DNA of 39,343 nt, from IMG/VR virus record IMGVR_UViG_3300036846_001161, positions 1-39,343 of that record; one strand, given 5' to 3'. A program made the translations under genes and the position numbers. Numbering within the stretch: position 1 is the stretch's first letter; each line of letters begins with the position of its first letter. Shown in pieces: positions 3,181 to 18,572 of the stretch. The stretch comes from a virus. Below the pieces are notes generated by a model that did not search any database, was not told the origin of the DNA, and was given only the letters and a program-made list of their open reading frames with translations.

Positions 3181-3209
3181 ATACTGCGATTGCTGCTGGT
3201 TTTGTGCAG
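3181..3209 (+). repeat. 29-bp inverted repeat, copy A
   Basis: This 29-base stretch (ATACTGCGATTG...TTTTGTGCAG) reappears exactly, in reverse complement, at 13479-13507. Both copies are intergenic, both follow a GNA-hairpin element, and both precede a gene start. Copy A ends 13 bases before the ATG of the VWA gene. Confidence 0.85.
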
Positions 3210-13478: not shown

Positions 13479-13507
13479 CTGCACAAAACCAGCAGCAATC
13501 GCAGTAT
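13479..13507 (-). repeat. 29-bp inverted repeat, copy B
   Basis: Exact reverse complement of 3181-3209. It lies in the 181-base spacer between the SSB-like gene and the small gene at 13605. Confidence 0.85.
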
Positions 13508-13827: not shown

Positions 13828-14439
13828 ATGCCCCAGATCATCGCCTTTATCGGTCCCCGTGGCGTGGGCAAGTCCACCGCCGCCACAATCCTCACCCACA
13901 CCTGCGGCTTCCTCCCGCTGCCCTTTGCGGCCCCGATCAAGGAGATGGTCGCCGCCCTCCTGCACTACCAGGGCGTCCCTCCCTACAGCATCCAGGCCAT
14001 GCTCCTCGGCAGCCGCAAGGACGCCCCCTCGGTCTACCTCGCCGGCCAATCCCCCCGCCACGTCATGCAGACCCTCGGCACCGAGTGGCGCGACCTGATC
14101 GACCGCACCCTCTGGAGTGGCATCTGGCAGTCCCGCCTCAAGCTGATCGGCTCCCGCAACATCGTCGTCGACGACATGCGCTTCTTGCACGAAGCGGCAG
14201 CGGTGCGGGCGGCGGGGGGCAAAATCTTCACCATCAGCCGGCCCGGCCACCGCACCTGCGACAAGCACATCTCCGAACAGGAGTGGAAGGAGATCGAACC
14301 CGACGGCGTCCTGGTCAACGACGAGGGCCAACAGGACGCGATGTTCGACCAACTCAGCGCCCTCGGTGTCGTCCCCCTCGCCACCCTGCCGCACGACGTT
14401 CCCCTCCCCCTGGATATTCCCATGGGAAAGCGCCACTGA
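13828..14439 (+). CDS. Deoxynucleoside monophosphate kinase
   Basis: 203 aa. ATG at 13828 begins the P-loop protein (IIAFIGPRGVGKST, Walker A at residues 8-15). A later VVDDMRFLHEA strand and helix and the LGTEWRD segment match phage dNMP kinases of the T4 gp1-like group, which phosphorylate dNMPs to feed DNA synthesis. The frame is open upstream but those codons overlap the previous gene. A GGAG site precedes the start. It sits directly before the UDG-polymerase gene, consistent with a nucleotide and replication role. Confidence 0.8.
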   Translation: MPQIIAFIGPRGVGKSTAATILTHTCGFLPLPFAAPIKEMVAALLHYQGVPPYSIQAMLLGSRKDAPSVYLAGQSPRHVMQTLGTEWRDLIDRTLWSGIWQSRLKLIGSRNIVVDDMRFLHEAAAVRAAGGKIFTISRPGHRTCDKHISEQEWKEIEPDGVLVNDEGQQDAMFDQLSALGVVPLATLPHDVPLPLDIPMGKRH

Positions 14440-14440
14440 C

Positions 14441-16213
14441 ATGCGCCTGATCCAAGAGGGACCCCGCACCCCCGGCGGCCTGATGTTGGTGGGCGAAGCG
14501 CCTGGCGCGGAGGAGGATCGCTCCGGGCGGCCCTTCTCCGGCACCAGCGGGTGGGAGCTGGACAAAGAGTTGAGCGCGGCGGGCCTCCTCCGCTCACAGC
14601 TCTTTATCACCAACGTCTGCCACGAGCGGCCGCCGGGTAACGAGATCGAGAAGTTCTTCGCCACCAAGACCGAAGCCAAGAATGCACCCAAGCTCGACAC
14701 CCTAAGTCTTGCCAATGCAGCCTCGCGCTTAGCTGCCGACATCACCGTCATCGCGGGCCGGTGTGCCCGCCGCCCGGTGATCGAGGGCCTCGTCCAGTTA
14801 CAGGCCGACATCGACGCCCTCCGGCCCCGCCTGATCATCGCCATGGGCAACACCGCCCTCTGGGCCTTGACCGGCCACACGGGCATACGATCATGGCGTG
14901 GTAGCATCCTGGAGGCTTCGGGAGGCCCAGTCGACGGAAAGGGGATCAAACTTATCCCCACTGTTCACACTGCCTCGGTCCTCCGTGAATACCAGTGGAA
15001 GGGGATCGTCATCCATGACCTCAAGCGTGCCCTCCGCGAGTCCATGTTCCCCGAAGTGCGACGGCCCACCTGGAGCTTCACGGTTCCGGGTTCACTCCGC
15101 GAGCTACGGGACTGGCTGGGAGACAACTTCGCGACGCTCCCCGAAGACGCCTACGTCACGGCGGATGTCGAAAACGACTACTCCACAGAGCGTGTTCATG
15201 ACGCTCGCATCTATTGTCTTGGGCTGGCTGTTGATAGTCATACTGCTTGCTGCGTGCCTTTTGCTCATCGAGCCGGTGATACGCCCCATTGGTGGGACAC
15301 CCCAGCTGAGGAGCGGGACGCCGTGCTCCTCCTCCGCGATTACCTGCGACGCCGGCCCGTCCTCTTCCACAACGGCCTCCACGACTGTCAGGTCATAGCC
15401 CACAACTGGGGCTGGATGCCGCGCTTCACCCACGACTCGATGGTCGCCCAGCACACCCTTTTCCCAGCCCAGCTCGGCGGCAAGATCGACCCCATCACCG
15501 GCAAGACCAGCAAGAGCGGCAGCTCCTACAGCCTCCTCTTCTGCTCCTCGATCTACTGCAAGTACCACCGTTACTGGAAGGACGACGGCAAAGGCTGGGA
15601 CCCAGCGATCCACGACGAACTCCAATACTGGCACTACAACTGCGAGGACCTTGTCCGCACCCACGAAGTCTTTGCGGTGCAAAGACATATGCTTCACAGC
15701 AACAAGTTGTGGGAGCAGTACCAATTCCTGATGAGCCTTTTCCCCTCTGTGTTCGAGATGATGTTCTCCGGCCTCGCCTTTGACGACACCGCCCGCCGCA
15801 CCTACCGGGCCGATGTCGAGCGCCAGATCGAGGAGGCCCAGGCCTGGATCAATGAGGCCGTTGGACACCCGCTCAATGTCGAGTCCTCGCAACAGATGCA
15901 GCGGCTCTTCTACGAGGACCTGCGGCTCAAACCGATCCTCCACCGCAAGACCCGCCAGCCGACCGTCAACGACCACGCCCTTGAACGCTTCAAGGTGGTC
16001 AGACCCATCCTGCGGCCCCTGGTCGAGCGCATCCAGGCCGTGCGCTCCTTGGCCGTCTACAAGGAGAACTTCCTCGACATGCGGCTCAGTCGCGACGGCC
16101 GCCTACGCCCCGCGATCAATGTCGCCGGCCCCGAAACCTACCGCTTCTCGATGAACCACACCGCCTTAGCAGAAGGCGCGAATTTGCAGAACCTACCTAG
16201 AATGGAGGACTGA
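14441..16213 (+). CDS. Uracil-DNA glycosylase fused to exonuclease/thumb half of a family A DNA polymerase
   Basis: 590 aa. Residues 1-200 form a family 4/5-like UDG (GEAPG at 19-22, EDRSGRPFSG, ITNV, and a PTVHTASVLR C-terminal motif); the usual N-terminal CxxC of Fe-S UDGs is missing. Residues 235-410 are a DnaQ-type 3'-5' exonuclease with intact motifs DVE (D242, E244), NGLHD (D315) and YNCED (Y399, D403). The rest is thumb, ending at the conserved NLQNLPR followed by MED and stop. The palm is encoded separately at 16591-17346. The ATG is one base after the previous stop. Confidence 0.85.
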   Translation: MRLIQEGPRTPGGLMLVGEAPGAEEDRSGRPFSGTSGWELDKELSAAGLLRSQLFITNVCHERPPGNEIEKFFATKTEAKNAPKLDTLSLANAASRLAADITVIAGRCARRPVIEGLVQLQADIDALRPRLIIAMGNTALWALTGHTGIRSWRGSILEASGGPVDGKGIKLIPTVHTASVLREYQWKGIVIHDLKRALRESMFPEVRRPTWSFTVPGSLRELRDWLGDNFATLPEDAYVTADVENDYSTERVHDARIYCLGLAVDSHTACCVPFAHRAGDTPHWWDTPAEERDAVLLLRDYLRRRPVLFHNGLHDCQVIAHNWGWMPRFTHDSMVAQHTLFPAQLGGKIDPITGKTSKSGSSYSLLFCSSIYCKYHRYWKDDGKGWDPAIHDELQYWHYNCEDLVRTHEVFAVQRHMLHSNKLWEQYQFLMSLFPSVFEMMFSGLAFDDTARRTYRADVERQIEEAQAWINEAVGHPLNVESSQQMQRLFYEDLRLKPILHRKTRQPTVNDHALERFKVVRPILRPLVERIQAVRSLAVYKENFLDMRLSRDGRLRPAINVAGPETYRFSMNHTALAEGANLQNLPRMED

Positions 16214-16214
16214 C

Positions 16215-16607
16215 ATGCCTGACAGCTACCCGCTCTGCGCCGACTGCCGCTGGTGCGTCATCGAAGAGGCCACCTACGAGGAGCCGCAGTGCACCTCCCC
16301 CAAGCAACCGATGTCCGTGGTCGACGGCAAGCCCCGCTGGCCCGAGTGCTACATCCAGCGCGGCGAGAACGACGAGCTTCCCATCCACCACCACGACCTC
16401 TGCCGCACCGACGGCCGCTACTTTGAGCCGCGCGAAGGCGAACCCACAAAGACCCACGACGAGCAGATACGGGACGCCACCATCGAAGAGTGCCAGGAAA
16501 TGATCCTTGGGGGCAGCTTCCTGCACGACGCTGCCCCTGCCAAGCAGTTCGCCAAGGAAGTCGTGGAGGCCCTCGACGGGATCAAGTCCGATGCCCTTCG
16601 AGCCTGA
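16215..16607 (+). CDS. Cys/His-rich zinc-binding-type protein inserted between polymerase halves
   Basis: 130 aa. GGAGG (16203-16207), inside the last codons of the upstream polymerase half, serves its ATG at 16215. The first 85 residues hold regularly spaced cysteines (CADCRWC, CTSP, CYIQRG, LCRTDGRYFEP), the pattern of small bacterial zinc-binding proteins with a C..C...P...C..GRYFEP arrangement; the remainder is helical. It shows no HNH, GIY-YIG or LAGLIDADG motif, so it is not an obvious homing nuclease. Its 3' end overlaps the palm-half ATG by 17 bases. Confidence 0.7.
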   Translation: MPDSYPLCADCRWCVIEEATYEEPQCTSPKQPMSVVDGKPRWPECYIQRGENDELPIHHHDLCRTDGRYFEPREGEPTKTHDEQIRDATIEECQEMILGGSFLHDAAPAKQFAKEVVEALDGIKSDALRA

Positions 16608-17346
16608 CCTCCCCCCTATAAGGTCGCTCATCAAGCCCGACCCCGGCTGGGTCTTGGTAGACAGCGACTTCGACAGGGCCGACGCCCAGATCGTCGCGTG
16701 GAGCGCCAACGAGCCGGCCCTCAAGGTGATCTTCCAGGAGGGTCACGATGTTCACACCGAGAACGCCGCCCTGGTATCGGGCTGGGCCAAGAAGCCCGTG
16801 TCACGTCAGGCGCTCAAGGCCGGCCTCCACCTCACCAACTACGGCGGCAAGGCCCGCACCCTCGCGGCCACCCTCGGCACCACCATCGCCATCGCCGAGG
16901 ATTTCCAAGCGTATTGGATGGGCAAGTACCCCGGCATCCACCAGTGGCACTACAGCACCCTCGTCGCCCTTCGGCTCCAGCACTACATCCGCAATGTTTG
17001 GGGCTTCCGCCGCTTCTACTTCGAGCGGCTCGACGGCCACAATGCCGAGGCCCTCCTCCCACAGGCCCTTGCGTGGCTCGGCCAATCGGGTGTCGCCATC
17101 GCCATCAACCACGCCATGCTCCAAGTTCGCTCGCGCTTCGCGCGAGACGAACTTCGGCTGAAGTTGCAGGTCCACGACAGCCTCTTGTTAGAGGTGCGGG
17201 CCGACCTCTGCCCCGGCATCTTCCCCGAGATCATCCAGGCGATGCAGGTCCGCATCCCCTTCGATGACCCGCTCTACATCCCTGTGAGCCTCAAGTATTC
17301 CGAGAGCAGCTGGGGCGAGGTCCACAAATGGAGCCAAGCAGCATGA
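16591..17346 (+). CDS. Palm/fingers half of split family A DNA polymerase
   Basis: 251 aa. All three polymerase motifs are present: motif A VLVDSDFDRADAQ (D26 the likely catalytic Asp), motif B R72...K76...NYGG (84-86) and motif C LQVHDS (H195, D196). The style (DRADAQIVAW, HLTNYGG) is that of phage mitochondrial-like polymerases. ATG 16591 has only a weak GGG upstream and lies inside the previous ORF, so coupling is likely. With the product of 14441-16213 it would make a complete exonuclease-polymerase. The stop overlaps the helicase ATG. Confidence 0.85.
   Translation: MPFEPDLPPIRSLIKPDPGWVLVDSDFDRADAQIVAWSANEPALKVIFQEGHDVHTENAALVSGWAKKPVSRQALKAGLHLTNYGGKARTLAATLGTTIAIAEDFQAYWMGKYPGIHQWHYSTLVALRLQHYIRNVWGFRRFYFERLDGHNAEALLPQALAWLGQSGVAIAINHAMLQVRSRFARDELRLKLQVHDSLLLEVRADLCPGIFPEIIQAMQVRIPFDDPLYIPVSLKYSESSWGEVHKWSQAA
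17123..17154 (+). repeat. Hairpin inside the polymerase palm gene
   Basis: AAGTTCG (17123-17129) / CGAACTT (17148-17154) encloses CTCGCGC TTC GCGCGAG (17130-17146), a 14-bp interrupted stem with a GAA loop on the complement. It resembles the GNA-hairpin elements but lies within codons just before motif C. Confidence 0.55.
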
Positions 17347-18572
17347 TCGAACTGAGCGAACAACAACAAGCCGCCCTAGCCGCCATCAAGGATTGGTGGA
17401 CAGGCCTGCGGCCGGCTCCCTTGTCAAGCGAGCAACGCCCAAATCCCATAGACGATTGGCATCTTCCCCAACCCGAGGTCACCGAAGGTGGCCGAGGGCG
17501 GTTCTTCCTGCTTGACGGTGGAGCGGGGACCGGCAAGACCACCCTTGCCTACCATGCCGTCCAGGCCCTCGACCCCAAACCCATCCAACGCTGCTACGCC
17601 GCCTACACGGCCAAGGCCGCTCGCGTCATGCAGGAGAAGGGGATGGAAGGTGCCCGCACCCTCTTCTCCGCGATGTACTACCCACGGCACGATGAGAAGG
17701 GCAAGCTGACCGGCGTCTTCGAGCCGGCCTTGCTCGAGTCCCTTGACCTCCTCGTCATCGACGAGTCCAGCATGGTGCCCGACCGCATGGTCGAACACAT
17801 CACCTCTACGGGTGTCCCCACCATCGTCCTCGGCGACCTCGACGGCCAACTGCCGCCGGTCAAGGGCGACCCCGGCTTCTTCAATTGGAAGCCCGACTTC
17901 CGCCTGACCGAACCCCACCGCAGTGTTTTGAACTCGCCCGTGGATAGATTGGCTTGGCTCGTCCGCCAAGGCTCTCCCATCAAGCCGCACATGGGCGACG
18001 GCGATATGGTCCGTGTCATGCCGTTGATGGGCGATGCCGTCTGGGACATCATCACCGACCCCGACAACATGGTGATCTGCGGCCGCCACACCAGCCGCTC
18101 CGCCGTGACCCGCCGCTGCCGCGTCAAGTTCTCCTACGGTGGTCACACCCCCTGCCCCGGCGAACCCCTCATCTGTTGCCGCAACAACTATGGCGAAGGC
18201 TTCATCAACGGCCAGATGGTCAACGTCTGGCGCATCCACCTGGACCGCCCCGGCCTCCCCTACTTCACCGCCGACCTCCTGGTAGACGGCACCGTCCGCC
18301 CCAATGTCAAGATCGCCCGCTACCACTTCGAGTGCCACTTCAACCCCGACCTCCTCAAGGAGACTAACCAGGTCTGGAAGAACAAGGACCAGGTCGAGTT
18401 CGACTGGGCCTACGCCATCACCGCGCACAAGGCCCAAGGATCGGAGTGGCCGCGTGTTGTCGTCATCGACGACCGGCTCATGGCCTATGACCGGGACTTC
18501 CGCCGGCGCTGGCTCTACACCGCCGTCACCCGCTCCTCCTCTCACCTCACCATCCTCCAGACCGGCCAGTGA
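17343..18572 (+). CDS. SF1B (RecD/Dda-like) DNA helicase
   Basis: 409 aa. Walker A GGAGTGKT (59-66), Walker B VIDESS (D140, E141), motif III GDLDGQLPPV (one residue longer than the usual GDxxQLPPV), a late YAITAHKAQGSEW motif and RRWLYTAVTRS (motif VI) define a 5'-3' SF1B helicase. ATG 17343 is preferred because GGAG lies nine bases upstream and the ATG overlaps the polymerase stop (ATGA); ATG 17328 is an alternative. It probably unwinds DNA at the fork or in recombination. Confidence 0.85.
   Translation: MIELSEQQQAALAAIKDWWTGLRPAPLSSEQRPNPIDDWHLPQPEVTEGGRGRFFLLDGGAGTGKTTLAYHAVQALDPKPIQRCYAAYTAKAARVMQEKGMEGARTLFSAMYYPRHDEKGKLTGVFEPALLESLDLLVIDESSMVPDRMVEHITSTGVPTIVLGDLDGQLPPVKGDPGFFNWKPDFRLTEPHRSVLNSPVDRLAWLVRQGSPIKPHMGDGDMVRVMPLMGDAVWDIITDPDNMVICGRHTSRSAVTRRCRVKFSYGGHTPCPGEPLICCRNNYGEGFINGQMVNVWRIHLDRPGLPYFTADLLVDGTVRPNVKIARYHFECHFNPDLLKETNQVWKNKDQVEFDWAYAITAHKAQGSEWPRVVVIDDRLMAYDRDFRRRWLYTAVTRSSSHLTILQTGQ

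Follow-up and report, generated by a model that had tools for sequence, protein, structure and literature searches.

Family A DNA polymerases are textbook single-chain enzymes and workhorses of enzyme engineering. Outside this family, the family B polymerase of the archaeon Nanoarchaeum equitans is naturally split and works as an active heterodimer. Among phages, 44RR and 25 of Aeromonas encode their replicative polymerase by two genes (gp43A/43B), which may or may not be accompanied by a gene for a homing nuclease (PMC2988022), but this polymerase is a T4-type family B enzyme with another split point than the polymerase described herein. In phage Aeh1, the mobE insertion leaves nrdA in pieces and an active enzyme is formed from separate polypeptides (PMC2988022); this is, however, another enzyme and a single homing-nuclease insertion. 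For the split DNA polymerase III alpha of jumbo phages, the catalytic module is predicted to reassemble from two proteins (PMC7824862), although that polymerase belongs to family C and is found beside a family B polymerase. Two-gene polymerases are already known for families B and C; a split family A polymerase is unreported in the literature found. The literature searched, with partial coverage and few subscription journals, yielded no report of one, and a search for relevant words in two PolA surveys (PMC6302109, PMC9069017) met no mention of a split.

Unsplit polymerases with the same UDG–exonuclease–PolA order of domains are encoded by MW202489 from Manatee Spring and by Microcystis phage Mel-JY34 (PP438425), at 33-37% identity. 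Each is one polypeptide with a 12-18-aa linker, where the locus studied here has instead a stop codon, a gene, and a start codon. The identical split site occurs in Vibrio phage vB_VspS_VS-ABTNL-3 (PVS_29/28/27, MF497422), whose gap holds a 184-aa ORF unrelated to the gap gene of the present locus; no remark on this split was found in the literature searched. In addition, PDB entry 9qhs, a single chain of 1142 aa named 'putative DNA-directed DNA polymerase I', has an N-terminal stretch that matches the UDG-like domain.

Anatomy of the split polymerase

The window, i.e., the whole 39,343-nt stretch of an IMG/VR virus record, was examined throughout for family A polymerase. It holds one, solely as two pieces, an N gene and a C gene (Table 1). 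The record, which may be incomplete, showed no family B or PolIII-alpha gene, and another polymerase is not fully excluded. The original prediction had placed the break between the NLQN motif and motif A, with a UDG in front and an intact exonuclease and thumb in the upstream gene. The Pfam matches of the two halves bear this out: the N gene covers DNA_pol_A profile positions 6-132 and the C gene positions 141-371 (E 8e-28), and the break loses only about 8 profile positions between them. The domain content of the upstream gene likewise holds on the evidence of Pfam, invariant residues, and fold, and its product, expected to end at NLQNLPR, has the C-terminus GANLQNLPRMED, i.e., NLQNLPRMED before the stop codon. 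For the downstream gene, motifs A, B, and C had been assigned correctly, but the start had to be moved from about 16618 to ATG 16591. The protein opens with MPFEPDLPPIRSLIKPDPG (longer stretch, MPFEPDLPPIRSLIKPDPGWVLVDSD), and this start is kept in three close relatives (MPFEP/MPFQP/MTFKPDLPP). The gap is indeed filled by a cysteine-rich ORF without recognisable intron or homing nuclease. This ORF begins 1 nt past the N-gene stop and shares 17 nt with the C gene, and no Rfam, Pfam, or PHROG match was obtained for it.

Table 1. Features of the split polymerase locus and its neighbours in the window.
Feature	Position (nt)	Strand	Basis
dNMP kinase, upstream, same gene cluster	13828..14439	+	phrog_139, 1.7e-41
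N gene, 590 aa: UDG, 3'-5' exonuclease, thumb, first palm segment	14441..16213	+	Pfam/PHROG
UDG domain of N gene	about 14441-15055	+	PF03167, E 2e-20
3'-5' exonuclease of N gene	about 15071-15700	+	D242xE244, N311xxxD315, Y399xxxD403
Split point: NLQN codons 16181-16192, N-gene stop 16211-16213	16181..16213	+	
GGAGG Shine-Dalgarno (SD) within last N-gene codons, 6 nt before ATG 16215	16204..16208	+	sequence
Gap ORF, 130 aa, Cys-rich, cargo	16215..16607	+	between N and C genes
C gene, 251 aa, motifs A, B, C	16591..17346	+	Pfam
Motif A D26 of C gene	16666	+	
Motif B R72-K76-H80-Y84 of C gene	16804-16842	+	
Motif C H195-D196 of C gene	17173-17178	+	
Dda-like helicase, downstream, overlapping C gene	17328..18572	+	phrog_325, 3e-70

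AF2 models were obtained for the N protein (pLDDT 91.4) and the C protein (pLDDT 94.8, pTM 0.89), each predicted alone and not as a complex. Against solved structures, the first 205 residues of the N model match a family 4 UDG (Tth UDG 1ui0: Z 22.7, 33% identity), while the N model matches Klenow 324-684 (Z 20.0) and Bst 296-631, and the C model Bst 632-876 (Z 23.6) and Klenow 684-928 (Z 20.8). The predicted folds of the two halves are complementary in coverage and tile Klenow and Bst, and sequence profiles agree (N = 14-357 and C = 366-596 of Klenow chain 1d9d). Since the N and C coverage meet there, the break is placed at Klenow about 681-688, in a loop that is 0 to 62 residues long in fused relatives.

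That both halves keep their key residues, as had been read from the window alone, extends to the relatives. The exonuclease residues D242, E244, N311, D315, Y399, and D403 are invariant in all 66 N halves, as is R568, the R668 equivalent, in the thumb/first palm segment. The catalytic D26 and D196 are invariant in all 73 C halves, and K76 and Y84 are present in 71 of them. Relatives with destroyed catalytic residues, which would have refuted the prediction, were looked for and none was found. With dN/dS among close relatives of 0.06-0.10 for N and 0.08-0.17 for C, both halves are under purifying selection. The locus has what is expected of family A (right-hand fold, motifs A/B/C, the two Asp, and the exonuclease motifs), and only the usual single-polypeptide form, which lies outside the homology definition, is absent, with two ORFs in the window and in 85 other loci. 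The family 4-like UDG fold and the GE.PG...HP motifs are also present, E19 being found in 56 and H176 in 54 of the 66 N halves; the window itself has HT in place of HP. The iron-sulphur motif KCRPP of the solved enzymes reads HERPP in the window, according to a phmmer alignment without full Cys mapping.

Recurrence of the split at one site

Relatives were collected from IMG/VR scans with the C half and from one GTDB genome scan, and loci were counted as distinct by their C protein. Among the 180 distinct loci, 91 are fused, 86 are split, and 3 have no N half in reach. The sampling was steered by split sequences, so the ratio 86:91 does not represent a natural frequency. The search for unsplit UDG-polymerases was successful and returned, besides MW202489 and PP438425, about 90 IMG/VR loci. 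The N-gene stop lies 9-45 nt (3-15 codons) past the end of the NLQN profile in every one of the 86 splits. Because 86 distinct loci are broken at one and the same position, the split is neither a chance event nor an assembly error. Gaps measure between -4 nt and 2.9 kb (median 423 nt), and 15 split loci have a gap of <30 nt and no gap gene, mostly with ATGA or TGATG overlaps. In bacterial genomes, the GTDB scan gave a single match, on a 50.7-kb contig of a Dokdonella MAG that may be a phage.

At least 14 changes between the split and fused labels are required by a FastTree phylogeny of 162 rows, compared with about 54 for shuffled labels, and 11 of the 14 are forced by well-supported branches. 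Distant outgroups are fused at the split site; thus, the fused state is inferred to be the likely ancestral one. The clade of 12 to which the window belongs is entirely split, with different gap contents. Exceptions to their surroundings are also found: L160 is split without an insert and nested in a fused clade, and L226 is fused and nested in the VS-ABTNL-3 clade. The linker of L226 (..YMHRVYGFDCEIPNIK) is similar to the C heads found in its split relatives (MSYMEKTYGFDCKLPNIK), pointing to either a re-fusion or a shared ancestral linker.

The placement of all splits in a single clade was rejected by the AU test (p-AU 3e-30, 47-row IQ-TREE subset), a test that cannot apportion the events between splits and re-fusions.

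Some variant architectures were encountered in the same collection. Two fused polymerases (L071, L127) have linkers of 51-62 residues at the split site, resembling a small extra domain. In L208 (6007-7632), the C half continues into a 541-aa ORF and is perhaps fused to a downstream domain. In Caulobacter phage Kuura (L009, 3471-6875), PolA is split elsewhere, in the exonuclease domain between motifs II and III, and two small ORFs separate the halves.

Gene content of the junction

In total, 122 gap ORFs of at least 50 aa were scanned. They match dUTPase in 17 cases, the ribonucleotide reductase (RNR) large chain in 5, HNH nuclease in about 4, DUF3310/nucleotide kinase and DnaQ-type exonuclease in 3 each, methyltransferase and a Lon-type protease domain in 2 each, and ThyX in 1, with many others unknown. 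Across the clade, these genes are mutually unrelated. The five RNR-gap loci form one clade and dUTPase-sized ORFs recur inside another; these gene orders are therefore considered old. Cargo can also differ between close sisters. L043 (no cargo) and L132 (HNH) share 86-90% nucleotide identity and are both split, and further sisters differ in the presence of cargo (L308/L179, L219/(L006, L210), L128/L130, L306/L276). The gap gene is an interchangeable cargo. For the cysteine-rich ORF of the window, homologues were sought and none was found beyond the close relatives L003-L005, and it is shortened or rearranged in L004 and L005. Between the window and L003, its dS is 0.14, far below the 0.40-0.52 of the flanking halves, from which it was probably exchanged separately.

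Two further gap contents deserve mention. In L005 (4838-5004), a short ORF with a zinc-finger-like stretch, GHEYTVENTYVNGGKRNCRICHNDKTKGR, which we take to resemble the start of some phage HNH proteins, shares the gap with the cysteine-rich ORF. In L091 (4480-5979) and L012 (3492-4991), the polymerase halves are separated by a di-haem oxidoreductase-like gene (PF06537), either a host gene or an assembly chimera.

These contents bear on how the split arose, which is a separate matter from two-subunit function. A homing endonuclease could have split the gene lineage by lineage, the cargo being its remnants or successors (as in Aeh1 nrdA) and the product remaining a two-subunit enzyme. Such an origin has the precedent of free-standing HNH genes (PMC2988022), and it is in line with the HNH genes in the gaps of L030/L296, L132, L102, and L125 and with the HNH-like fragment of L005. 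However, L132 has the nuclease and L043 does not, yet both are split, so that in this pair the nuclease gene could be a later arrival at a junction already present. Within a fused clade, L160 shows a split that contains no insert at all; the bulk of the cargo does not resemble nucleases, and the gap ORF of the window has no nuclease match. Homing nucleases may have caused some splits, but most gaps are without them, and as the general origin they remain an unlikely, though not negligible, explanation.

Expression of the two genes and inferred assembly of the enzyme

In 71 of the 85 split loci considered, the next gene starts between -10 and +30 nt from the N-gene stop, most often at -4 nt (30 loci) or -1 nt (16 loci). 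An SD match of at least 4 nt precedes 83% of these close starts vs 15% of control ATGs; the gene that follows N has its ribosome-binding site within the N-gene tail. Within the 18 nt after NLQN, an SD match of at least 4 nt occurs in 92% of split loci, 53% of fused loci, and 25% of control windows. Because about half of the fused loci also match, the PKG[DE] codons of fused genes appear already to resemble a ribosome-binding site. As a hypothesis, this may make the site easy to split.

Elsewhere in the window, an exact 29-bp inverted repeat is located at 3181-3209 (+) and 13479-13507 (-). L003-L005 also have the second copy upstream of their dNMP kinase, which raises the question of whether the repeat is a regulatory or a recombination site.

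Group I introns with HNH ORFs are known from PolA genes elsewhere among phages, as described for cyanophage Pf-WMP3 (PMC3428280) and for Shewanella phage KASIA, where the intron is spliced in vivo (PMC8541194). By analogy, and given the HNH genes in a few gaps, the gap could be or contain a self-splicing intron, with a mature mRNA that encodes one polymerase. This is very unlikely: Rfam searches of the window and of 25 relatives, with gathering and relaxed cut-offs, matched no intron, the HNH-bearing relatives being included at the relaxed threshold, even if an undescribed intron is not excluded. Moreover, a single ORF preceded by its own SD takes up nearly the whole gap of the window, other gaps are occupied by complete genes for dUTPase or RNR, and 15 relatives are split without a gap gene.

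Programmed frameshifting or stop readthrough could instead yield a certain amount of fused polymerase, at least from abutting genes. Relative to N, all three frames are used by C across split loci (31/28/26), although the -1 frame predominates among abutting genes. A slippery-type heptamer is present in 3 of the 15 abutting loci, but a conserved one was not found; -4/-1 overlaps also occur where the next gene is unrelated cargo, and most gaps contain whole genes. The single in-frame TAA between the halves of L096 would be compatible with readthrough, for which, as for frameshifting, only a very small chance is left. Splicing and frameshifting are not general explanations of the split.

That the halves are decaying remnants in a phage using the host polymerase has no direct support and is extremely improbable in view of the purifying selection on both, their invariant catalytic residues, and their confident folds. 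Genes fractured around split inteins are known, such as DnaE. Despite this precedent and a putative split-intein PolB in phage MIJ3 (PMC6892783), protein trans-splicing of the two products can be set aside almost completely, because N tails of 3-15 residues past NLQN and C heads beginning a few residues before LPNIR leave no room for intein halves.

The two genes thus very probably encode two subunits of one family A DNA polymerase, whose association and activity are inferred. This reading starts from what is observed, namely the anatomy, the conserved and recurrent split site, the diversity of cargo, the selection, and separate ORFs with their own start signals. The two-subunit polymerase that the original prediction had held likely gains support from the lack of any intron found, the residues kept, and the purifying selection. 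What weighs against the pair is that there is no direct evidence of binding or activity and that transcript and proteome data are lacking.

In the proposed mechanism, one operon mRNA, itself inferred, would be translated with coupling through the SD in the N-gene tail. Besides the family-4-like UDG and the proofreading exonuclease, the N subunit would contribute the thumb and the first segment of the palm, which includes the primer-template Arg. Fingers and catalytic palm, including the two metal-binding Asp, would come from the C subunit. The subunits are inferred to associate without covalent joining, in the absence of binding data, and the assembled pair would synthesize DNA with a polymerase active site shared between two polypeptides. 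Judging from what is known of the Klenow active site, activity should require the two proteins together, because the primer-template Arg and the catalytic Asp are on different polypeptides. The break falls in a loop of variable length (Klenow about 681-688), where an interruption is tolerated. This loop has been split repeatedly, perhaps with re-fusions as well, and the junction would then have gathered unrelated cargo, often genes that serve dNTP supply. A benefit of the split, if there is one, is inferred only.

Taken further, a large phage lineage may have obligate two-subunit family A replicases with a shared active site, in which the split recurs at one loop because the PKG[DE] codons resemble a ribosome-binding site, and the junction serves as a reusable slot that couples the expression of dNTP-supply genes to the polymerase. 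This combined proposal is tentative and falls a little short of an even chance.

A recurrent natural split through the palm provides a map of where the enzyme can be cut, and it supplies polymerases that come in two parts already, for making DNA synthesis controllable or switchable. Likewise, many fused/split comparisons become available for studying why genes split and fuse. For annotation, the split is a hazard: the halves can be labelled 'DNA polymerase' and something else, and PolA surveys that demand full-length proteins will miss them.

The C halves show one more peculiarity. The equivalent of E. coli F762 is His in 73 of 73, split and fused (H80 in the window, 16828-16830), that of E710 is Asp in 73 of 73, and that of R712 is Gln in 71 of 73. 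In one survey, phage PolA are grouped by Phe, Tyr, or Leu at position 762 (PMC6302109), and His at this position may represent an undescribed PolA type.
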